From an uncultured Burkholderiales Genera incertae sedis bacterium (GTDB lineage Bacteria; Pseudomonadota; Gammaproteobacteria; Burkholderiales; Eutrophovitaceae), in contig CAJQIK010000057.1 of NCBI GenBank assembly GCA_905478365.1, positions 1 to 44,320 on the forward strand: a DNA stretch of 44,320 nt, written 5' to 3'. A model generated the notes under the pieces. That model was not told the origin of the DNA and did no database searches. It worked only from the letters and a program-made list of their open reading frames with translations. This document shows positions 11,457-38,662 of the stretch, piece after piece; the first letter of the stretch is position 1; every line of letters starts with the position of its first letter. A program made the translations under genes and the position numbers.

Positions 11457-12581
11457 TTATTTACCATTAACCTCAACTATAAAATCTAGAATTTCGCCAT
11501 GTCGATGAACAGAGATTGTAATTTCATCCCCATTCTTAAAATTATCCATGATCCCTTGATAATTGCTGACGGATTCCACTGAGTTTCCATTGATTTTAGT
11601 AATGATGTCGCCGGGTACAATGACGCCGTCAGACCTAAGTCTTGCTGCTTCAAGTCCGGCTTTTGCGGCAGGCGAGCCCGGAGAAATGCGAAGAATCGCA
11701 ACTCCATTAATACCCATCGTGCGCGTAATACGTCTGTTGAGACCTGGATCGAAATGAATACCAATACTTGGGGGAGTATATTTTTTATATTGTATTAATT
11801 GAGGTACCACTCGATTAATGGTATCCACTGGCACCGCAAATCCAATTCCTGCTGAGGCACCGGAGGGACTGAATATCGCGGTATTAATACCAATTAATCG
11901 TCCAGCAGAATCAAGAAGGGGGCCGCCGGAATTTCCTGGATTAATCGCTGCATCTGTCTGAATTAAATGTTCTATGTTCTGTCCGCCGTCAGTACTTAAA
12001 CTGCGATTTAGCGCAGACACAATACCGGTAGTCAGTGTCCAGTCTAAACCGAACGGATTACCAATCGCATATACTTTTTGCCCTACTTTTAAGTCTTCGC
12101 TTTCCCCGATTGGAATAGGCGGAGGCGCCTGATTGAGAACTGTTATTTTTAGGACTGCAAGATCATGCGAGGGACTAACTCCAACCAGTGAGGCCTTATA
12201 ATCTCTTCCGTCTTCGAGTCTGACAGTTGCTTCACTACTGCCTTTGATTACATGAAAGTTCGTTATTAAGTGACCGTGAGCATCCCAGATTAAACCAGAT
12301 CCAGTGCCGCTGGGTACGGAGAAGGTATTTCGTGTCCAAAAGTCTCTTACCCGTTGTTTCGTGCTGATAAACACTACTGATTTTTTTGATTTTTCAAAAA
12401 TAGATATTGTCGAGGTCTCTTCATTAGTCAGTGGACCTCTTGAAGATATTGGCCGGGGCTCGATTTTATTTGGGTCACTAGCGGCGTTGAGATACACCAA
12501 GCCCCCCGTTACGCAAATTACACACAGTATAAGGATCGTAGAGAGTGGCGACCGAGCGTTATCTTGATCGTTAAGTGACAT
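11457..12581 (-). CDS. Membrane-anchored HtrA (DegS/AlgW-like) serine protease
   Basis: The protein is 374 aa, with one N-terminal membrane segment (STILILCVICVTGGLVYL) and a periplasmic trypsin-like domain. The triad is complete: H110 in TNFHVI, D140 in SHDLAVL, S218 in GNSGGPL. A single PDZ domain follows (about 275-370). One PDZ and an uncleaved anchor fit the DegS/AlgW group, which starts the envelope-stress proteolytic cascade, although DegQ-type function cannot be excluded. It lies 20 bp downstream of the crotonase gene. It is an intact counterpart to the degenerate HtrA at 35834-36808. Confidence 0.92.
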   Translation of the reverse strand: MSLNDQDNARSPLSTILILCVICVTGGLVYLNAASDPNKIEPRPISSRGPLTNEETSTISIFEKSKKSVVFISTKQRVRDFWTRNTFSVPSGTGSGLIWDAHGHLITNFHVIKGSSEATVRLEDGRDYKASLVGVSPSHDLAVLKITVLNQAPPPIPIGESEDLKVGQKVYAIGNPFGLDWTLTTGIVSALNRSLSTDGGQNIEHLIQTDAAINPGNSGGPLLDSAGRLIGINTAIFSPSGASAGIGFAVPVDTINRVVPQLIQYKKYTPPSIGIHFDPGLNRRITRTMGINGVAILRISPGSPAAKAGLEAARLRSDGVIVPGDIITKINGNSVESVSNYQGIMDNFKNGDEITISVHRHGEILDFIVEVNGK

Positions 12582-27293: not shown

Positions 27294-30032
27294 ATGGGAA
27301 AAAAATTAATTTACGAAAAGGTATGGCCTCATGATTTGATCGATGTGTTGGCCGCAAGGATCTTAGATGATTCTGAGAAAACCTATTATGATTTTTCGGA
27401 TAAGGTCGTTGTTCTTCCATCTTTAAATACAGTTGCAGAGTGCTCACGCCGTTTAGTCGAGTTAGCAGGTTCTGGCCTGATCCTTCCTAGTTTTACCACC
27501 CTTGATTCTTGGGCGTGTCAAGTAGCGAAGCCATTTGAGGTGGAAACGAAACGTTACCTTACTCTATTGATTTATCATGAGCTTGAGAAGCATCAATGGC
27601 TGGAACGGGGGAACAATTGGAACCTCGCCGCAGATATGGCTCAGCTCATTGGTGAGTTAAACTCATACCAACCTGATGTTGAACTAGACCTAGAGTCGGT
27701 TAATGACCGATTTAATGAGGCGTATCAAACGCGTGCTCAAAAATTAGTCGGCTTTGAAGCAAAACTTTTATTTGATACATGGCATGCGTTCACAGGCGTC
27801 CGTAATGGGCGGACATCCGAGCAGAATGTATATCGACATAGGCTTTCGAGTTTATTAAAACTAGAGAAACGGTCTTTATATGTTGTTGTGTATCCCGATC
27901 TTAGCCCTTTAGAACGGGCATTTATAGAGAGTTATTCCAGTCAACATTGTGTTACCGTTTTAGAGGCCGACGTTAGCTCTATTCATGATGATACGAGAGC
28001 TGATTTTTGTAGATCGGTGTATCAAAATGAGACTCAAGACGGAGCTTTTCTAAATTCAGAGCCGACTTCTGGCGATCCAAATGTTTGGAAAGACACGATT
28101 TCCTATTTTCCAGCGGTCAATTTGGATCAAGAGGTTCGGGCAATTCAGGTTCAAATTCAAGATTGGATAAGATTAGGTATCAATACGATTGCCATCATTC
28201 CTTTTGATCGAAAGGTTGCGCGTCGACTGAGGGCTGTGCTGCAGCAATCTGGAATTTTGGTGCAAGATGAGTTCGGGTGGAAAATGTCAACAACTTCCGT
28301 TGCGGCTATGCTCGTCGACTGGTTGGAGCTTCTTACATCCGATATAGAAATAACAAAATTAATTGCATTTTTAAAGCGGCCCATTCTTCTCAAAACGTCA
28401 GGGGTAGAGGAGCTACGATTAAATTTAGAAAAGGCATTTAAAAAAAATAGACATTGGGCTATAAAAAGCGGATTTTACGAGGTCGCTCAGACTTGCTGCT
28501 CGGATCGCTCGTTAGAATTGGCACATATGCTGCGAGAGGCGAAGAGTCGATTCGACCGTGCTAAATCGAGGCGGCATCGGGATTGGATCGACGGGGTTTT
28601 AATGAGCTTGGAATTTATGGACCTTAAACTTAAGCTCGAGTATGACGATGCAGGTCTTCAAATATTGCAGTTACTGGATACGTTAAGGGGTGAAGTCGAG
28701 CTGCTGCAACGTGAGGTAAGTTTTGCAGCTTGGTTAGATTGGTTTAAGACGCAGCTTGAAGATAATACTTTTAAAGACACCAAGATCAATAGTCCAATCT
28801 GTTTCACTCATTTGAGCGCTGCGCGACTTCGGTGCTTTGATGGAATAATCTTTGCGGGCGCTGATGATGGTAATTTCCCGCTGGCGGAGACTAGGACTCC
28901 CCATTTTGGTGATGGAGTTCGGGCGCAACTAGAGCTTAGAACCACTGATGACTTTATACATGCCGACAAGGTTGATCTGATCGGGGCGTTACTCTCGAGC
29001 AGCAATATTTTAGTCACCTGGCAGAGCCAAAAGGATAATGAAAATAACTTGATAAGTCCTTGGTTTGAGAGCTTTCGTCTTTATTACACGCAACGATGGG
29101 GAGAGGGCCTTATCGATTCCGATCTGCAGTCTCGCGTCAACTTGTTTGATCGTCAACAGCGAGGGTTACAGGCCATGTATCAACCCTCATCCGAGCCGCA
29201 GGTTAGTCTCGCTGCTTCTGAGATACCCAGAAAAATATCGGTTAGTGGCTATCAGAGCTTGCTAGATTGCCCATACCAATTTTTTATTCGTTACGTGTTA
29301 AGGACGCGTGAGCCAGAGATACTTGATTTCGAGCCTAGTAATCGAGAGTTAGGGAATGTGCTTCATGTGACATTAGAAAAATTCCATGCGCGACACCCAT
29401 CTTGCGTTGGCGTTGATGTTGGTATCCTCCATCGAGAAATAATAGATATTACCCGTGAGACGTTAGAAACTCATATTGGAATAAGAGGTGTGACACATGG
29501 TTGGATAACTCGGTTTTATGATTTGCTTAGGCAGTATCTAGATTGGCAAATTCAGTGGGAAAAAGAGGGGTGGGATATTATTGACACGGAGAAAGACTGC
29601 GAGCGTACGTTCCTGACTGAAGGTGGGTTGAGCGTAGATTTTTTTGGGAGAGTGGACCGCATAGATGAGAAGCTTGCCGTTACAGGACCGGAGACAATGG
29701 TCATTGATTATAAAACGCAAGGTAAATCTCGATTAAAAAAAATGATCTCCACCTACGACGAGAATACGCAATTGCTGTCATACCTTGCATTGCAAACGGA
29801 AAATAAAGTCAAGGCTATGTATCTGTCTCTAGATAAAGACTCTCCCGATATGGTTACTTTAGAAGTGGATGATGTGAGTGGTATGGTTGAAACACACATG
29901 AGCCGCTTGAGAGATTTGTTTGGAAAGTTGGAGTCGGGCGAGGTATTGCCAGCGAATGGAGTGCCTTCAAGTTGCAAATACTGTGACGTGAAGGGTTCGT
30001 GCCGGAAGGATTATTCTTGGTTGCCGAAGTGA
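27294..30032 (+). CDS. AddB-like PD-(D/E)XK nuclease with Fe-S cluster cysteines
   Basis: The product is 912 aa. The N-terminal two-thirds is a degenerate helicase-like region without a visible Walker A. The C-terminal RecB-type nuclease has GNVLHVTLEKFH and VIDYKTQGK (about residues 803-810). Four cysteines in AddB-like positions, one in LLDCPYQFF (about 657) and three in SCKYCDVKGSC (about 892), predict a 4Fe-4S cluster around the nuclease. It pairs with the downstream helicase-nuclease, whose frame overlaps it, to form a double-strand-break end-processing complex for RecA-dependent repair. Confidence 0.88.
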   Translation: MGKKLIYEKVWPHDLIDVLAARILDDSEKTYYDFSDKVVVLPSLNTVAECSRRLVELAGSGLILPSFTTLDSWACQVAKPFEVETKRYLTLLIYHELEKHQWLERGNNWNLAADMAQLIGELNSYQPDVELDLESVNDRFNEAYQTRAQKLVGFEAKLLFDTWHAFTGVRNGRTSEQNVYRHRLSSLLKLEKRSLYVVVYPDLSPLERAFIESYSSQHCVTVLEADVSSIHDDTRADFCRSVYQNETQDGAFLNSEPTSGDPNVWKDTISYFPAVNLDQEVRAIQVQIQDWIRLGINTIAIIPFDRKVARRLRAVLQQSGILVQDEFGWKMSTTSVAAMLVDWLELLTSDIEITKLIAFLKRPILLKTSGVEELRLNLEKAFKKNRHWAIKSGFYEVAQTCCSDRSLELAHMLREAKSRFDRAKSRRHRDWIDGVLMSLEFMDLKLKLEYDDAGLQILQLLDTLRGEVELLQREVSFAAWLDWFKTQLEDNTFKDTKINSPICFTHLSAARLRCFDGIIFAGADDGNFPLAETRTPHFGDGVRAQLELRTTDDFIHADKVDLIGALLSSSNILVTWQSQKDNENNLISPWFESFRLYYTQRWGEGLIDSDLQSRVNLFDRQQRGLQAMYQPSSEPQVSLAASEIPRKISVSGYQSLLDCPYQFFIRYVLRTREPEILDFEPSNRELGNVLHVTLEKFHARHPSCVGVDVGILHREIIDITRETLETHIGIRGVTHGWITRFYDLLRQYLDWQIQWEKEGWDIIDTEKDCERTFLTEGGLSVDFFGRVDRIDEKLAVTGPETMVIDYKTQGKSRLKKMISTYDENTQLLSYLALQTENKVKAMYLSLDKDSPDMVTLEVDDVSGMVETHMSRLRDLFGKLESGEVLPANGVPSSCKYCDVKGSCRKDYSWLPK

Positions 30033-33000
30033 CACCAGAGGTCGCAGATAAAAGAACCATACTTGATCCGCGTAATGATGTAATTGTCGAGGCGTGTGCA
30101 GGTTCTGGTAAGACATGGCTGCTTACCTCGCGCATTATTCGGGCACTTTTGTCAGGTGCTAAGCCCTCGGAAATATTAGCTATCACCTTTACGCGTAAGG
30201 CGGCGCGTGAAATGAAAGCACGTTTAACCGACTGGTTGAGAACTTTAGCCTTATCTGATGACAAGAAAATCAGAGAGTTTTTGCTAGAGCGCGGTGTTAG
30301 CGGCGATGATATCGATGCATCAGTTCCTCGAGCGCGAAGACTATATAGGGAATATTTGTCTACCTCTGGGGGGCTGAATATTAATACATTCCACGGATGG
30401 TTTATACAAGTTCTAAGAATGGCACCTTGGTCTGCTCAGTCTGGTCGTGGAAGATCGCTATCGGACAATGACGACTTGCTTCTCCGAGACGTCTGGGAAG
30501 ATTTTTTTCAACAGATTGGCTCGAACCAGGATGTTTTCGACAGCCTTAATTACCTTTATTCACGATATGAGCTTCACAATACTCACGAAATACTCAAGCG
30601 GTTTCTGAATGCCCGTTTAGATTGGTGGGCTAGTTCGGAAAGTGACGATATCAGCAAGCTTATTGTCGCTTGGCGACGTGATCAGGATCGAGATCCTTTG
30701 GGTTACTTTTTGATGGACCAAGGCTTTCTATCAAAGTTAGTTACGTATAAGGCTCTTCTCAGAAAGAATAATTTAGCCAGCGAGATGCGAGCACTTGACG
30801 CAATGGAATCTATTGAGATAAACGAAAATCCGGACAGGTGGTTTTTGTCTTTGAGGAAAATATGTAAAGAGAAAAAAATCTCAAAGGCTATGACGAATAG
30901 AATGGGAGCGGACAAGGCAGAGCAGTATGTTCGTCTAAGTGCAGAGTTACAGTCGATGATCGATAAGCTAGGGATGGAAAGAGCGGATTGGCTCGCCCGC
31001 CAAATGGATCGTGCTGTAAAAATCGTAGGCGACGAGTTACTCAAAAAATTCCAGTCTTTTAAAACTGATACTAATGTCTTAGATTTCTCAGATTTAGAAT
31101 GGAATGTCAGATCATTATTGCTCGATGATGATCAAGCTGACTTTGTCTTGCATCGATTAGATTCTCGCTACACGCATTTATTGGTTGATGAGTTCCAAGA
31201 TACAAATCCCATCCAGTGGACGATCTTGAAGTCCTGGATTGGTGCGTCACATCAAGCGGGCACAACCATAAAATTATTTTTTGTTGGTGATCCAAAACAG
31301 TCTATTTATCGTTTCAGAAGGGCTGAGCCACGGCTTTTTGAAGTGGCTGAGGAGCTAATTGTTTCTGAAATGGGTGGGCTTAAGGTTGTTCAGAATTTTA
31401 GTTATCGAAACGCTGCTGGAATTACAAATCTAGTCAATGAATGTTTTCGGAAAAGGATCTCTAATTTTGTGCTGCAACAGTCTGTTGACCCCTCGTTACC
31501 CTCCGAAGTGGAAGTAATGCCACTGATCGAATCGGCTGAGCCGATTGTCGCCTCTGACGCTAGTATTTGGAGAGACCCATTAGTGACGCGCAGGTCAGAG
31601 CCCACGGATGATCGGCACTATCGAGAAGGCCTACTCATTGCTGAAAAGATTCACAATTTAGTGTCGAGAAAAAGTATCAATGTAGATAGTGAGTGTAGCC
31701 CGATAAAGTACTCAGACATATTGATTCTTATTAGGCGACGAACGCATCTAAAAAATTATGAAGATGCGCTCAGGTCATTAGATATTCCATTTGTAAGTCA
31801 AAGAAACGGAGCATTACTCGAATCTCCAGAGGTTCAAGATGTAATTGCTTTGCTTAGCTTTCTTTTTGCACCTCACGTTGATCATCACTTAATTAACGTT
31901 CTTAAATCCCCAATTTTTTCGATTGATGACGGACTTTTGAAAGTGTTTATTAATCGAGAAGAGAAGTCGATATGGACTCTTTTAATTGAGGATCAAGAAT
32001 CTAAGGAACAAAAATTACCCGCTGAACTATGCAGTGCTGCGGCCTCCTTATCGATCTGGATCAATTACGTGGATAAGTTGCCCGTCCATGACCTGCTGGA
32101 TATGGTCTATAGCGAATCGGATTTGATAAACCGTTATGCGGGATATGCGCTACCTGATATAGCTGAACGTGTACGTTCAAATTTAATTGCATTCCTCGAG
32201 TACTCCTTAGACTTTTCTGGAGGGAGGTTCCCGAGCATAGAGCGTTTTCTGGAGCAAATTAGAGTACTGCAGTTTGAGGAGGGAGCAGGGCCGGGGGAGG
32301 GGTCGCAGCCAGGGTCTCTAAATTCTGCACGTATCATGACTATTCACGGAGCTAAAGGTTTGGAAGCTCCTGTTGTTTTCTTGGCTGATGCAACCGCGTC
32401 GCCAGATGCTGATAATTGGAATATTTTGGTTGATTGGACTCCAGGTGATGATGTTCCGAATCATTTCTCTATCTACGGCGCTCGGAAGGATGCCGGACAA
32501 GTGCGAACAGAAGTTTTTCAGCGCCACGACCTGCTAAATAACGTCGAAGATATAAATCTTCTATACGTGGCGGTCACTAGAGCAAAGCAAGCATTTTTTG
32601 TATCGGGGGTGGCCAGTAAAAAGCAAGAGACGTCTAGTTGGTATTTCCAACTTAAGGACGCGGTAGCGGCTTGTAAGAAGACTTACGGTTTGGAGGACTC
32701 GTCCAGTATCCAGTGTAACCCTGAGGACGGTGTTGCTATTGGTACAGATGAGCATTCCCAAGAAATCAAGAAAGAGCATTTCTCGATAGGTACCAGAGTT
32801 GTGCAATTTAAAAACAGTAGCATGGATTTTGGAACGCTGGTGCATAAAATTTTGGAGATAGCCACACTTGATGTTGGCTCGATTAGTAAGGGCGAGATGG
32901 AGCAGATGTTTGAGCCAGTTCCTGATGACTTTGAGATGGCTTGGGAGGCAAGCTTAAGAATAATAAATGCACCGCCAATGAAACGATTTTTTGATTCGCT

Positions 33001-33268
33001 AGAATACTTAAAGGCTCAAAATGAGGTGGCTTATGTCAATCGTAGTGGCGATATGAGAAGAATTGATCGTCTTGTTGAATTTGATGAGGAGATCTGGATT
33101 GTTGATTATAAGATTTCGCTAGACCATCATTCGAAACCCAGTTCCGAAATGCGTCGCCAATATAAAAGTCAGTTAGTTCAATATCGAGATGATTTAGTTA
33201 ATATCGGGGTGGGTAAGCCCATTCGTATCGGTGTAGTTCTGAGTGGTGGTGAGCTGATAGAGCTTTAA
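29999..33268 (+). CDS. AddA-like UvrD-family helicase with C-terminal nuclease
   Basis: The protein is up to 1089 aa. Helicase motifs are in order: Walker A ACAGSGKTWLL (about 32-42), ITFTRKAAREMK, NTFHGWF, VDEFQDTN (about 393), VGDPKQSIYRFRRAEP, TIHGAKGLEAPVV (about 780) and LYVAVTRAKQ (about 853). The C-terminus carries a RecB-like nuclease motif (MRRIDRLVEF, IVDYK at about 1035). The start is unsure: GTG 29999 (used here) overlaps the previous gene by 34 bp, while TTG 30017 has a better Shine-Dalgarno (GGAAGGA, 6 bases away). Two nucleases in two subunits fit AddAB rather than RecBCD. Confidence 0.9.
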   Translation: MPEGLFLVAEVTPEVADKRTILDPRNDVIVEACAGSGKTWLLTSRIIRALLSGAKPSEILAITFTRKAAREMKARLTDWLRTLALSDDKKIREFLLERGVSGDDIDASVPRARRLYREYLSTSGGLNINTFHGWFIQVLRMAPWSAQSGRGRSLSDNDDLLLRDVWEDFFQQIGSNQDVFDSLNYLYSRYELHNTHEILKRFLNARLDWWASSESDDISKLIVAWRRDQDRDPLGYFLMDQGFLSKLVTYKALLRKNNLASEMRALDAMESIEINENPDRWFLSLRKICKEKKISKAMTNRMGADKAEQYVRLSAELQSMIDKLGMERADWLARQMDRAVKIVGDELLKKFQSFKTDTNVLDFSDLEWNVRSLLLDDDQADFVLHRLDSRYTHLLVDEFQDTNPIQWTILKSWIGASHQAGTTIKLFFVGDPKQSIYRFRRAEPRLFEVAEELIVSEMGGLKVVQNFSYRNAAGITNLVNECFRKRISNFVLQQSVDPSLPSEVEVMPLIESAEPIVASDASIWRDPLVTRRSEPTDDRHYREGLLIAEKIHNLVSRKSINVDSECSPIKYSDILILIRRRTHLKNYEDALRSLDIPFVSQRNGALLESPEVQDVIALLSFLFAPHVDHHLINVLKSPIFSIDDGLLKVFINREEKSIWTLLIEDQESKEQKLPAELCSAAASLSIWINYVDKLPVHDLLDMVYSESDLINRYAGYALPDIAERVRSNLIAFLEYSLDFSGGRFPSIERFLEQIRVLQFEEGAGPGEGSQPGSLNSARIMTIHGAKGLEAPVVFLADATASPDADNWNILVDWTPGDDVPNHFSIYGARKDAGQVRTEVFQRHDLLNNVEDINLLYVAVTRAKQAFFVSGVASKKQETSSWYFQLKDAVAACKKTYGLEDSSSIQCNPEDGVAIGTDEHSQEIKKEHFSIGTRVVQFKNSSMDFGTLVHKILEIATLDVGSISKGEMEQMFEPVPDDFEMAWEASLRIINAPPMKRFFDSLEYLKAQNEVAYVNRSGDMRRIDRLVEFDEEIWIVDYKISLDHHSKPSSEMRRQYKSQLVQYRDDLVNIGVGKPIRIGVVLSGGELIEL

Positions 33269-34118: not shown

Positions 34119-35807
34119 TTATTTAAGGAGGCGTCCGGGTAGATTTCCGGTCTGCTCGTCTTGTTGAATAATTTCGATTCCCGACACCAATGTATGTTTA
34201 TAGCCCTTAGCTTTCTGAATTAGGCGCTTACCTCCAGCAGGTAAGTCATATGCAATCTCGGCATCTAATAAGGCTAATTCTTCATAATCTATGACGTTGA
34301 TATCAGCCTTGTACCCAGCTTTAATCAGTCCTCGATCAGATAAACCATAGCCTTTAGCGCTATCCAAGGTATGTTTCTTAATTAAAAATTCTAATGGGAT
34401 GGTCGGCCCACGTTTCCTGTCGCGCCCCCAGTGAGACAGTAAATAGGTCGGAGCCCCTTCGTCACATACAGTGCATACATGCGCCCCCCCGTCTCCAAGA
34501 CCCATAATGGTGCCTTCATCTAGCAACATGTCTCTTATAACCTCAAGGTCACCATCAAAATAGTTTTCAAATGTATGGGCCAATAACCCTTTCCCATTGT
34601 TGTTGAGCATTCCTTCAAGAGCAACTTCTAAGGGCTCCACACCTTTTTTCGCTGCGATGTCGCAAATATTGTCAACGGGCGATGGCTCGTAATCAAAACC
34701 TTTATGCATTAAGAATGTTTTAGGTAACCATTCTTTAACACGTCTTGTATGTTCATCGTCGGGCATTTTATGAACTAAATCATGCCGCAGGTTAGCATCA
34801 TATTTAATTTTCGCTAGCCGCTCGTCTGAGGATAGTGCGGACATTTCAATCCACCGAGGATGAGTCGAAAATGGGTTGATTGTAGTTTCAAGTCCCATGA
34901 TTATAACGATAGGCCGGCAGCCGACTTGACCATTTACGTTAAGGCCTTGGGATCGAGCCAAGTGAATTTGATCTCGTGTTTGTCTCCAAAGGTCAGGTGA
35001 ATTATTTGTTTGTAGAAGCAGGATAGACAGAGGTCGGCCCGAAACCTCGCTAACCATGCGCATTATTTCGAATTCACCCGGACCAAAATCAGAGTTGACT
35101 TCAATTATTCCTTTCCCTGCTCGTTTCATTGCTTCAGCTAATCCACGCATTTCGATACTTCCCGCTGATAGGCTGGGTGTATTTTTCCCATCGCGACTCA
35201 AGTGTTTTGTTGTTCTTGAAGTGGTAAACCCAAGAGCGCCTGCATTTAAAGCCTCCTCCAGTAGCACGCCCATTGACGTTATTTGAGCGTCAGTGGGAAT
35301 AGCGGTGTGATCCGCCCCTTTTTCACCCATGACGTAAAAGCGCAATGGCCCATGCGGAACCTGCGCGCCTATATCGATAGCTTTTGGGGATGAGTTAAGT
35401 ACATCAAGATATTCTGGAAAGGATTCCCAGTTAAATTTTACGCCCTCCGATAGAACAGCCCCAGGGATATCTTCGACACCTTCCATTAAGTTAATCAAGT
35501 AGGAAATATCGTTTTTACGGACTGGTGCGAATCCAACGCCACAGTTTCCGAAAATTGCTGTGGTTACTCCGTGAAAAGTAGATGGTGTCAAATAGGGATC
35601 CCAGGTTACTTGTCCGTCATAGTGGGTATGTACGTCTACGAAACCAGGGGTTACCAGAAGACCATCTGCGTCAATAATGCGTGAGGCTTGACCAAGATTC
35701 GAACCTACACCAGTAATTACGCCATCTTTAATTGAGACGTCTCCAATAAATCTGTCTTCGCCGGATCCATCGACCACCGTACCATTTTTAATTAATAAGT
35801 CATTCAT
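34119..35807 (-). CDS. N-acyl-D-amino-acid deacylase family amidohydrolase
   Basis: The product is 562 aa. N-terminal metal ligands are in VDVHTHYDGQ (H60, H62). C89 in FGNCGVGFAP matches the cysteine metal ligand of D-aminoacylases. The C-terminal GDGGAHVCTVCDEGAP holds the metal-site aspartate region, and GYKADINVID leads into the small beta-sandwich domain. Family members deacylate N-acyl-D-amino acids, but many paralogues act on other amides. Its gene lies 26 bp after the pseudo-HtrA gene and 18 bp before the SDR. Confidence 0.88.
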   Translation of the reverse strand: MNDLLIKNGTVVDGSGEDRFIGDVSIKDGVITGVGSNLGQASRIIDADGLLVTPGFVDVHTHYDGQVTWDPYLTPSTFHGVTTAIFGNCGVGFAPVRKNDISYLINLMEGVEDIPGAVLSEGVKFNWESFPEYLDVLNSSPKAIDIGAQVPHGPLRFYVMGEKGADHTAIPTDAQITSMGVLLEEALNAGALGFTTSRTTKHLSRDGKNTPSLSAGSIEMRGLAEAMKRAGKGIIEVNSDFGPGEFEIMRMVSEVSGRPLSILLLQTNNSPDLWRQTRDQIHLARSQGLNVNGQVGCRPIVIIMGLETTINPFSTHPRWIEMSALSSDERLAKIKYDANLRHDLVHKMPDDEHTRRVKEWLPKTFLMHKGFDYEPSPVDNICDIAAKKGVEPLEVALEGMLNNNGKGLLAHTFENYFDGDLEVIRDMLLDEGTIMGLGDGGAHVCTVCDEGAPTYLLSHWGRDRKRGPTIPLEFLIKKHTLDSAKGYGLSDRGLIKAGYKADINVIDYEELALLDAEIAYDLPAGGKRLIQKAKGYKHTLVSGIEIIQQDEQTGNLPGRLLK

Positions 35808-35833: not shown

Positions 35834-36808
35834 TTAATGAGTTTGCGGCTTGAGCAGAAAATCATTTCGATCTATAGAGTTGATCACAAGTTGCAGTTGA
35901 TTTCCATTGCGGTTTATATTTATCGGTACCGATACGCCCGCTGCGCCAAGAGTCCAAACAGATCGAAAAAAATTAGCTAGCGTTGATACGCTCTCTTCGC
36001 CAACTCCAACGACTTTATCTCCCTGTAAAACACCTGCGAGCTCGGCGGGTCCGTAGCGGGCCAGGCTATTCACGGTTAAAGTCTTCTCTGATTCGACTGC
36101 GTACATGCCCAGCCAAGGTCTCGCAGGTGCTGATGACCGCCCAAACTCTAACATGTCACCCATAATGGATTTTAAAATACTCGTGGGTATAGCTAAGTTA
36201 CCTTGTAGATTTTGTCCCTCGAATATTTCTTGGAGGAATAGTGAGCCTATACCAATGATATGTCCCTTTTTATTAAACACTGCCGCACCCCCCCATTGAG
36301 GGTGAGGAGGGGAGGTGTAGATCGCGGCCTCGAGAAGATACTCCCAATATCCGGCAAATTCGTCGATTCGACTAATCTTAGAGCACAATGAATGCTCGAT
36401 ACCGCCATAGCTGATGAAGAAAATGTCGTCATTTACGGTGACCAAATCACTCTGGTCTAACTCAGAGGCGTCAATATCTAGTGATCCTAAAGCTTGGACT
36501 AATCCCAAGCCCGAGCTCTGATCGTAGGCAACCACATGCCCGGGAATACTTTGGTTGAGGTTAGTTGTTAACCACACGGTTTCGGCCTCCGTGACTAAGT
36601 AACCCACCGTCAAGATTAGACCACTATTATTAATTAAGACCCCGCTACCGATTCGTTCGGTTCCAAGGACGTCTGCCGTAAACGCAGCAGCAGGGATTGA
36701 AGTTCTTACTTTTACAACAGAATTTATGGCGCTATCGAGATTAAATAGCAGTTTTTCAGGGTTAGGCCTCAAAGAATGAGGGAATTTCCACTCGTCGGCA
36801 TTTTCCAT
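35834..36808 (-). CDS. HtrA-like protein lacking the catalytic triad (pseudoprotease)
   Basis: The product is 324 aa. The trypsin-like fold is recognisable (GSGVLINNSGLILTVGYLV, GGAAVFNKKGHIIGIGS) and a PDZ-like domain follows (about 225-315: LARYGPAELAGVLQGDKVVGVG). By alignment with the intact HtrA at 11457-12581, His is replaced by Y70, Asp by G100, and GNSGG by PQWGG (Ser to W172). So all three catalytic residues are lost while the frame is intact. No signal peptide or membrane anchor is seen, implying a cytoplasmic binding or scaffold role. It heads an operon with the amidohydrolase and SDR genes. Confidence 0.82.
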   Translation of the reverse strand: MENADEWKFPHSLRPNPEKLLFNLDSAINSVVKVRTSIPAAAFTADVLGTERIGSGVLINNSGLILTVGYLVTEAETVWLTTNLNQSIPGHVVAYDQSSGLGLVQALGSLDIDASELDQSDLVTVNDDIFFISYGGIEHSLCSKISRIDEFAGYWEYLLEAAIYTSPPHPQWGGAAVFNKKGHIIGIGSLFLQEIFEGQNLQGNLAIPTSILKSIMGDMLEFGRSSAPARPWLGMYAVESEKTLTVNSLARYGPAELAGVLQGDKVVGVGEESVSTLANFFRSVWTLGAAGVSVPININRNGNQLQLVINSIDRNDFLLKPQTH

Positions 36809-36890: not shown

Positions 36891-37844
36891 TCACGTTCTT
36901 TGAGATTTTGACCGTGACGCTCCAAGCGATGACGAGTATTTTCTTTTTTCCGATACGATTAGAGTGGATAGAAGTTCGAAGTCGGTTTTATTACTGTCTG
37001 TTTTTCTTTTCACTAACGCTATATCCCGAAATGGCGGTTTGTTTGAAAACGGTCTTGCGATGAGATCAGTTCCTAATAGAGCGCCAGATTTAATCACCAT
37101 TTCGGGTAGAAGCGTGCAACCTAAACCGTTATCAATCATTTGAAGGAGTGTATATAGGCTGGTTGCCGCAAAAGCTTGATCAACTGAGTTGGTTGGCCGA
37201 GTTCCGCACGCCTCGATAGCGTGGTCTCTCAGGCAGTGCCCTTCTTCCAGTAAGAGTAGCTCATTTAGGTCGACATCTTTTATTGAAATTTCTTTCAGTT
37301 TGGAAAGCTTCTGTCCTTTTTTCGCAACCCACCAAAATTCGTCCTTGAATAGTTTATTGACCGTGAGGCCTCTTGTTTCATAAGGCAGGGCGATAACAGC
37401 AAAATCGAGTACCCCAGACTTGAGTTGGTCTAGAAGGCGTGCAGAAAAATCCTCCTTTAGATACAACTTTAACTGTGGGTACGTCAACTTCAGCGCTGGT
37501 ATTACAATGGGCAGCAAAAATGGAGCAATCGTAGGAATAATTCCTAACTTTAAATTTCCACTTAGTGGCTTTTTTAAATGTTCCGTGATGCTGGCCAAGT
37601 CGTCGACTTGAGAAATTATCGATAACGCTCTGCTTAACACTTCTGCGCCAACATCAGTTAGGCGCACCGAGCGCTTAGTTCGCTCTAAAAGCACCGCTCC
37701 GAGGGTTGTCTCGAGTTCCTTTATTCCAGCTGAGAGTGTTGATTGCGTTATGAAAAGTTTCTCTGATGCTTGCCGAAAATTTAACGTTTCAGATACTACG
37801 ATTAGATATTTCAATTGCCTGATAGTCGGTACGGCTGCTCCCAT
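36891..37844 (-). CDS. oxyR: LysR-type regulator OxyR
   Basis: The protein is 317 aa with an N-terminal winged helix-turn-helix (NFRQASEKLFITQSTLSAGIKELE) and a LysR substrate-binding domain. The segment EEGHCLRDHAIEAC keeps both peroxide-sensing cysteines, C204 and C213, at the same spacing as C199 and C208 in E. coli OxyR. It should therefore sense hydrogen peroxide and activate oxidative-stress genes. It lies 23 bp downstream of the fatty acid hydroxylase gene on the same strand. No catalase or ahp gene is in the window. Confidence 0.92.
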   Translation of the reverse strand: MGAAVPTIRQLKYLIVVSETLNFRQASEKLFITQSTLSAGIKELETTLGAVLLERTKRSVRLTDVGAEVLSRALSIISQVDDLASITEHLKKPLSGNLKLGIIPTIAPFLLPIVIPALKLTYPQLKLYLKEDFSARLLDQLKSGVLDFAVIALPYETRGLTVNKLFKDEFWWVAKKGQKLSKLKEISIKDVDLNELLLLEEGHCLRDHAIEACGTRPTNSVDQAFAATSLYTLLQMIDNGLGCTLLPEMVIKSGALLGTDLIARPFSNKPPFRDIALVKRKTDSNKTDFELLSTLIVSEKRKYSSSLGASRSKSQRT

Positions 37845-37867: not shown

Positions 37868-38662
37868 TTAACTCGTGGAAACAGTTTGCTCGAATTCGAT
37901 GCCTTGATCTGATCGAAATTCAGTTTTTATATGCTCTTGATTGTATCCATTAAAAAGATGGCCAATCAACCCGCGGTCAAGGTCGCTCGTCCCCATATAC
38001 CAATCAGTGACTGGGTAGGTCAAATTCATATTCCTTGCCATCATAATATGCTGGCTGTGATGGGCAGCATGATGTCTTCGAATGGTGTTTATTAGAGGGC
38101 AGTGACGAACGAACCAGTTTTCCCTTACATGGCAGCATAAGTGAAACGTTTCATAGTTTAGATAGTAAAACGGAGTAGAGAGCATCAGCACGTAACCCGC
38201 GTTTGGACTCCATAAGTAACCTATGATGAGTGCCATAGGGACGGTACCGAAAACGAAGATTAATAAAGCATACGGCGGAAATAAAACGATTCGCCACTCA
38301 CGACTGGCGTCGTAAGTCATTCTTTTTGACGTGAAATATTGGTGATGTTGGTGCACGTGTCGATGAAAGACCGGTAAAAATGCGCCACCGAGACCCTTAA
38401 TGGGTTTATGCATCGCGTTCTTGTGTATCCACCACTCGTTAAAGTTGTACACCACAAAAACAGGAAGCAGCAGTAAGACTTCCGACCAATGTGGATTTTC
38501 AATTTGAGAAATACAAAACGCAATGACCGCTATTCCGGGTATATATATTGAGAGTAGATGTCCCCAACCCGAGTACCATTTCGCTATATTTTGCTTATAC
38601 TCTTCACGAAATAGACGCTGCTTTTCGGTCATCTCTCCGGAAAACAAATTTTGGTCAGACAT
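37868..38662 (-). CDS. Fatty acid hydroxylase / sterol desaturase superfamily membrane protein
   Basis: The product is 264 aa with at least four membrane segments. Histidine clusters that bind the di-iron centre are all visible: HKNAMH, HRHVHQHH, HLCCH and HHAAHH. The family uses O2 to hydroxylate or desaturate lipids, carotenoids or alkanes; the substrate here is unknown. A very strong ribosome binding site (AAGGAGGGAGG) precedes the ATG, suggesting high expression. It is followed by oxyR 23 bp downstream. Confidence 0.88.
   Translation of the reverse strand: MSDQNLFSGEMTEKQRLFREEYKQNIAKWYSGWGHLLSIYIPGIAVIAFCISQIENPHWSEVLLLLPVFVVYNFNEWWIHKNAMHKPIKGLGGAFLPVFHRHVHQHHQYFTSKRMTYDASREWRIVLFPPYALLIFVFGTVPMALIIGYLWSPNAGYVLMLSTPFYYLNYETFHLCCHVRENWFVRHCPLINTIRRHHAAHHSQHIMMARNMNLTYPVTDWYMGTSDLDRGLIGHLFNGYNQEHIKTEFRSDQGIEFEQTVSTS

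Follow-up and report, generated by a model that had tools for sequence, protein, structure and literature searches.

Active proteases of the HtrA family (MEROPS S1C) assemble into trimers or higher oligomers, and bacterial HtrAs are extracytoplasmic. DegP, DegQ and DegS consist of a chymotrypsin-like domain followed by PDZ, and by both sequence and fold they are the best solved-structure matches of the protein described here, which shares this organization. It differs from them in lacking the catalytic His, the catalytic Asp and, in the present sequence, the catalytic Ser, in having no export signal and in carrying a single PDZ domain.

HtrA-derived pseudoproteases are already known. MamO of magnetotactic bacteria contains an HtrA-derived domain in which proteolysis was lost and which was kept for a binding function; it retains H116 and D149, has Thr as nucleophile, carries a TauE transporter domain and binds metal via H148 and H263 (PMC4794232). 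The present protein resembles MamO in being HtrA-derived and apparently non-proteolytic but differs in that MamO retains His and Asp and has TauE. The NCBIfam MamO model matched it at E = 6e-4 with 18 bits, far under the cut-off of 800, and no TauE domain was detected. PflC of the Campylobacter flagellar motor is a periplasmic scaffold with an HtrA fold that has no catalytic triad, with two PDZ-like domains and with the His loop entirely lost (PMC12222027). Both PflC and the present protein are thus HtrA folds without a triad, PflC being periplasmic with two PDZ-like domains and the present protein having one PDZ. In a 2008 survey, only 2 inactive trypsin-family homologues were reported in 91 genomes (PMC2605481).

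With its HtrA fold, lost triad and gene under selection, the protein belongs with MamO and PflC in the class of HtrA-derived pseudoproteases. The family is set apart from these by its apparent location, its breadth and a fixed Tyr/Gly replacement accompanied by a rebuilt hairpin. Searches of an open-access library gave no published description of the family, and subscription journals could hold one.

Organization of the Pseudoprotease and of the Intact HtrA

The window (the whole stretch of 44,320 nucleotides that was analyzed) contains the following features relevant to the comparison.

35834..36808, minus strand: HtrA-like pseudoprotease gene, family A, 324 aa (ORF and translation, Pfam, orthologues)
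36248..36649, minus strand: Trypsin_2 (chymotrypsin-fold) domain, residues 54-187 (Pfam PF13365, AlphaFold model, Foldseek)
35882..36115, minus strand: PDZ domain (PDZ_2), residues 232-309 (Pfam PF13180, above cut-off)
Residues 230-234, minus strand: conserved RPWLG motif, carboxylate-loop-like, ahead of the PDZ domain
35837..35869, minus strand: conserved C-terminal tail ending P-x-x-H (alignment A2; flexible in the model)
11457..12581, minus strand: intact membrane-anchored HtrA, 374 aa, with H110, D140 and S218, used as the comparison gene

Both the ORF list and the translation gave a clean frame of 324 codons at 35834-36808 on the minus strand, in agreement with the initial annotation, which had described an intact HtrA-like gene with a readable protease fold and PDZ-like domain. 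Both domains scored above their Pfam cut-offs (47.6 bits against 27.6 for PF13365), and no further domain was detected by Pfam in the 324-residue protein. The architecture of a trypsin-like domain followed by PDZ identifies the protein as an HtrA/S1C homologue; by contrast, the NCBIfam models for DegP, DegS, DegQ and HtrA all fell below cut-off, the best score being 59 bits against 416. An AlphaFold2 model built from a 99-sequence alignment had a mean pLDDT of 92.3 and a pTM of 0.90, and DegQ and DegP were the top Foldseek matches to it. The PDZ domain and the RPWLG loop, the latter presumably serving as the carboxylate loop by comparison with HtrA proteins, are retained by nearly all family members.

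The C-terminal tail is also conserved. In alignment A2, P321 was present in 98 of 99 sequences and H324 in all 92 rows that reach this position, and in Rhizobiaceae-like family A members Q replaces the terminal His of P-x-x-H. The last residues have a pLDDT of about 50 in the AlphaFold model. In a protein that carries PDZ, such a free and conserved C terminus could act as a ligand, either of the protein's own PDZ domain or of a partner's.

The intact HtrA that had been noted in the same window was found at 11457-12581, with its complete triad. In the genome as a whole (1.83 Mb in 156 contigs), two Trypsin_2 proteins were found, namely the pseudoprotease and this intact HtrA.

Residues at the Former Triad Positions

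36599..36601, minus strand: Y70, catalytic His position, invariant in 165/165 (HMMER, hhalign, conservation)
36509..36511, minus strand: G100, catalytic Asp position, invariant in 165/165 (HMMER, hhalign, conservation)
36290..36295, minus strand: W172-G173, W172 at the Asn of GNSGG and G173 at the catalytic Ser position (alignments, models)

Y70 and G100 paired with the catalytic His and Asp without gaps, both in HMMER alignment against solved DegP and in hhalign alignment against 13 canonical HtrAs, as had been proposed. The third position required correction. W172 had been taken as the replacement of Ser, but the HPQWGG segment paired with NPGNSG in both HMMER and hhalign, with W172 on Asn and G173 on Ser. 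In the AlphaFold model of the intact HtrA, the strand that follows S218 spans residues 221-223 and so begins at Ser+3; the corresponding strand of the pseudoprotease model spans 176-178, and therefore the Ser position is 173. W172 was rejected in favor of G173 on the basis of the two profile alignments and the strand register of the two models. The initial placement was thus right for His and Asp and one residue off for Ser, and the conclusion for this protein is unchanged: no His-Asp-Ser triad was found by alignment or modeling, the residues being Y70, G100 and G173. The statement that all three residues are replaced holds for this protein but not for every relative, since 18 of 138 family A members have Ser at 173.

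Conservation of the Remodeled Site

36338..36346, minus strand: W155-E156-Y157, within the invariant FAGYWEY hairpin (165/165; model strands 140-153 and 157-166)
36302..36304, minus strand: H169, unchanged in all 138 family A sequences but variable in B (conservation count)

Conservation was assessed in a set of 165 sequences, comprising 138 from family A, to which the protein belongs, and 27 from a sister family, B. Y70 and G100 were invariant in all 165, as were T67, E74, D96, F151, W155-E156-Y157, G174, W232, G234 and others. The relatives share the His and Asp substitutions seen in this protein, and none of the 165 has a normal triad, though Ser alone recurs at 173 in some. The FAGYWEY hairpin sits where an HtrA regulatory loop would be, a loop assignment that we infer. 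W172 is invariant in family A and is aromatic or His in family B. The blocks around the old active site are better conserved than random blocks: their entropy averaged 0.55 bits, compared with 1.47 for the whole alignment, and with block limits drawn by hand around the triad positions, 57 of 20,000 random block sets were as low.

Position 173 behaves differently. In family A it is Gly in 118 sequences, Ser in 18, Asn in one and Ala in one; in family B it is Ser in 14, Gly in seven, Ala in four and Gln in two. Loci L163 and L105 provide examples with Ser173. On a FastTree tree, at least 11 changes between Ser and the remaining residues were required. Ser thus comes and goes at this position, while His and Asp never return in either family. 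Given that both activating residues are gone in 165/165 sequences while the nucleophile position drifts, selection appears to act on the replacements and not on catalysis. Strict retention of the replacements, next to a nucleophile position that is free to vary, points to rebuilding of the site and not to erosion. The family offers a natural example of selection remodeling an active site, with the charge-relay pair uniformly replaced.

These data also bear on whether some residual or unconventional proteolysis persists, for example with Ser173 as a nucleophile that needs neither His nor Asp, or with the role of base taken by H169 or Y70. The intact fold and PDZ domain would suit such an activity, as would Ser at 173 in the 18 family A and 14 family B members. 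However, the protein of the window has Gly at this position, Ser changes at least 11 times with no co-varying change at the invariant positions 70 and 100, and most family B members lack H169, those bearing Ser included. Residual proteolysis is therefore highly improbable, and the triad replacements suggest that peptide hydrolysis has been lost.

Distribution of the Two Families

Family A occurs in Burkholderiales and Alphaproteobacteria and, outside Burkholderiales, in a small number of gammaproteobacteria. When 60 relatives were searched, close orthologues emerged in six further genomes from the genus, at 68-85% identity, and others at 44-51% identity across the rest of the bacterial family and in several other families of the order. 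Scanning one genome per species gave at least 575 confirmed relatives, a set biased toward the FAGYWEY and HPQWGG residues because these motif patterns were used in the scan; the best 80 of these came from Burkholderiales, Acetobacteraceae, Methylobacterium, Hyphomicrobiales, Stella and other Proteobacteria. The other searches for relatives used full-length sequence without motif patterns, and their results agree with those of the motif scan.

Full-length profile scores fell into three separate bands, with family A at 399-546 bits, family B at about 249-368 bits and canonical HtrAs no higher than about 103 bits. Judged by these bands, family A is present in 57 of 399 genomes of the order, and A or B in 94 of the 399; for the phylum, 28 of 299 genomes carry A or B. 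No intermediates linking the dead family to active HtrA were found among 369 genomes of the class, searched at E up to 1e-25: family members there scored 299-512 bits, and no canonical HtrA exceeded 103.

Family B shows the same His-to-Tyr and Asp-to-Gly changes, and its members mostly have hydrophobic N-terminal signals, indicative of secretion. Family B loci include L192-L211, L023-L025, L153-L155, L186 and L187, and several genomes have one A copy together with up to two B copies.

Members that are 43-48% identical over at least 90% of the protein were also present in plasmid records (PLSDB) of Rhizobium, Neorhizobium, Pararhizobium and Phyllobacterium. These entries belong to the same family and differ only in name, being labeled "S1C family serine protease" or "signal protein PDZ". 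Such names mislead: a large family of Alphaproteobacteria and Burkholderiales that is labeled serine protease cannot be a classical serine protease.

Selection and Gene Loss

Between genus members, the pseudoprotease gene had dN/dS values of 0.06-0.13 (Nei-Gojobori, pairs with finite dS), obtained only from unsaturated pairs, since many genus pairs were saturated at synonymous sites. These values are not neutral and are of the same scale as those of the intact HtrA of the same genus (0.045-0.12). Purifying selection on the pseudoprotease is strong. No internal stops were present in the listed family members from the 60-relative, order and phylum searches.

The gene has nevertheless been lost within the genus. 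In one genome (G001), the LysR and amidohydrolase genes that flank it elsewhere are adjacent and the pseudoprotease gene is gone; the gap between them (L226, 3577-3688) keeps only a remnant resembling the last codons of the gene, LDRNDFIVEPQTY, followed by a stop. This loss is a clean deletion. Given that both neighbors were kept, the gene is dispensable in that species. No pseudoprotease match was found in a second genome of the genus (G008), where the amidohydrolase lies at a contig end.

The deletion and this apparent absence are what might be expected of a decaying protease gene. That reading was rejected on dN/dS values of about 0.1 and the stop-free orthologues, and the occurrence of the same substitutions in different bacterial families and classes also opposes it; it is almost certainly wrong. 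The initial description of a gene maintained and not decaying is upheld by the low dN/dS, the stop-free orthologues and the invariant substitutions. Conservation by itself suggests that the gene product is working.

Cellular Location

The open frame spans 326 residues, leaving just two codons between the upstream stop and the ATG and thus no room for a signal peptide. The maximum 15-residue hydropathy of the N-terminal region is 1.14, compared with 2.69 for the anchored HtrA. On these two grounds neither a signal peptide nor a membrane anchor was found in the pseudoprotease, consistent with the initial annotation, and a cytoplasmic location is likely.

An alternative is that the protein is exported by a route that its sequence does not reveal, and that its target is the cell's own periplasmic HtrA, which it would regulate or block. 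The presence of an intact HtrA in this genome and the mostly secreted family B would accord with this. It is very unlikely, however, since there is neither a signal peptide nor a transmembrane segment nor room for one, and most members of family A have an N terminus that is itself conserved close to its beginning (W7, P10).

A broader proposal, which we put forward tentatively and hold to be somewhat doubtful, is that the two families form a widespread proteobacterial pseudoprotease pair, cytoplasmic A and exported B, whose dead site was rebuilt once (Tyr-Gly and the FAGYWEY hairpin) and which may recognize a common ligand or partner on both sides of the inner membrane.

Predicted Function

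With the PDZ domain and fold intact and the site rebuilt, non-catalytic binding is the likeliest role. The protein is probably a maintained, non-hydrolyzing pseudoprotease of an ancient HtrA-derived family, most likely acting as a cytoplasmic binding protein such as an adaptor, chaperone or scaffold. In this role it would act by binding through the PDZ domain and the rebuilt cleft and not by cutting. The PDZ domain would bind partner proteins by their C termini or by exposed tails. The remodeled, conserved former cleft (Y70, G100, the FAGYWEY hairpin and the HPxW loop) would provide a second, fixed surface for binding or assembly. MamO and PflC show that HtrA folds can take such roles.

The main rival to the binding-protein assignment is that the old cleft was rebuilt as a small-molecule, metal or catalytic site, making the protein a repurposed enzyme or a ligand sensor. 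An invariant polar and aromatic cluster surrounds the former active site (Y70, E74, D96, W155, E156 and Y157), joined in family A by H169 and W172, and there is a precedent in MamO, where metal is bound by a dead HtrA domain. However, family B, which shares the remaining invariants, does not keep H169 and W172 in all its members; no second conserved His or Cys pair points to a metal site; and no enzyme of other chemistry was matched in Pfam or in the structure search. We regard a new site of this kind as unlikely. Members of the family are present in culturable Methylobacterium, Rhizobium and Azospirillum; the orthologue of Azospirillum brasilense Sp7 lies on plasmid ABSP7_p1 at 627457-628434. 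In such hosts a function could be assigned for the first time to an HtrA-fold pseudoprotease of apparently cytoplasmic location.

Gene Neighborhood

36891..37844, minus strand: LysR-type (OxyR-like) regulator, upstream neighbor; adjacent throughout the genus and in some of the bacterial family
34119..35807, minus strand: amidohydrolase, downstream neighbor; adjacent throughout the genus and in some of the bacterial family, not elsewhere

No neighbor is conserved across orders or beyond the bacterial family to which the window belongs, conservation being confined to related lineages, and the gene contexts in Rhizobium and Pararhizobium differ from that of the window and from each other. Gene neighborhood was therefore rejected as a functional clue. 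The case for a functional link to LysR and the amidohydrolase is weakened by the species that keeps both and has lost the pseudoprotease. Anti-phage defense was likewise set aside, there being no PADLOC match.

At 37868-38662 on the minus strand lies a gene for a 264-aa protein with the His-rich motifs HKNAMH, HRHVHQHH, HLCCH and RRHHAAHH, which are typical of the fatty acid hydroxylase/sterol desaturase superfamily. Neither Pfam, even at E = 1, nor the PDB gave a match to this protein, and it is also found beside the pseudoprotease in another genus of the bacterial family. Elsewhere in the window, at 27294-33268 on the plus strand, the gene for a PD-(D/E)XK nuclease-domain protein (912 aa) overlaps that for a UvrD-type helicase (1089 aa) with a C-terminal nuclease domain, and the pair looks like a recombination nuclease of the AddB/AddA type.
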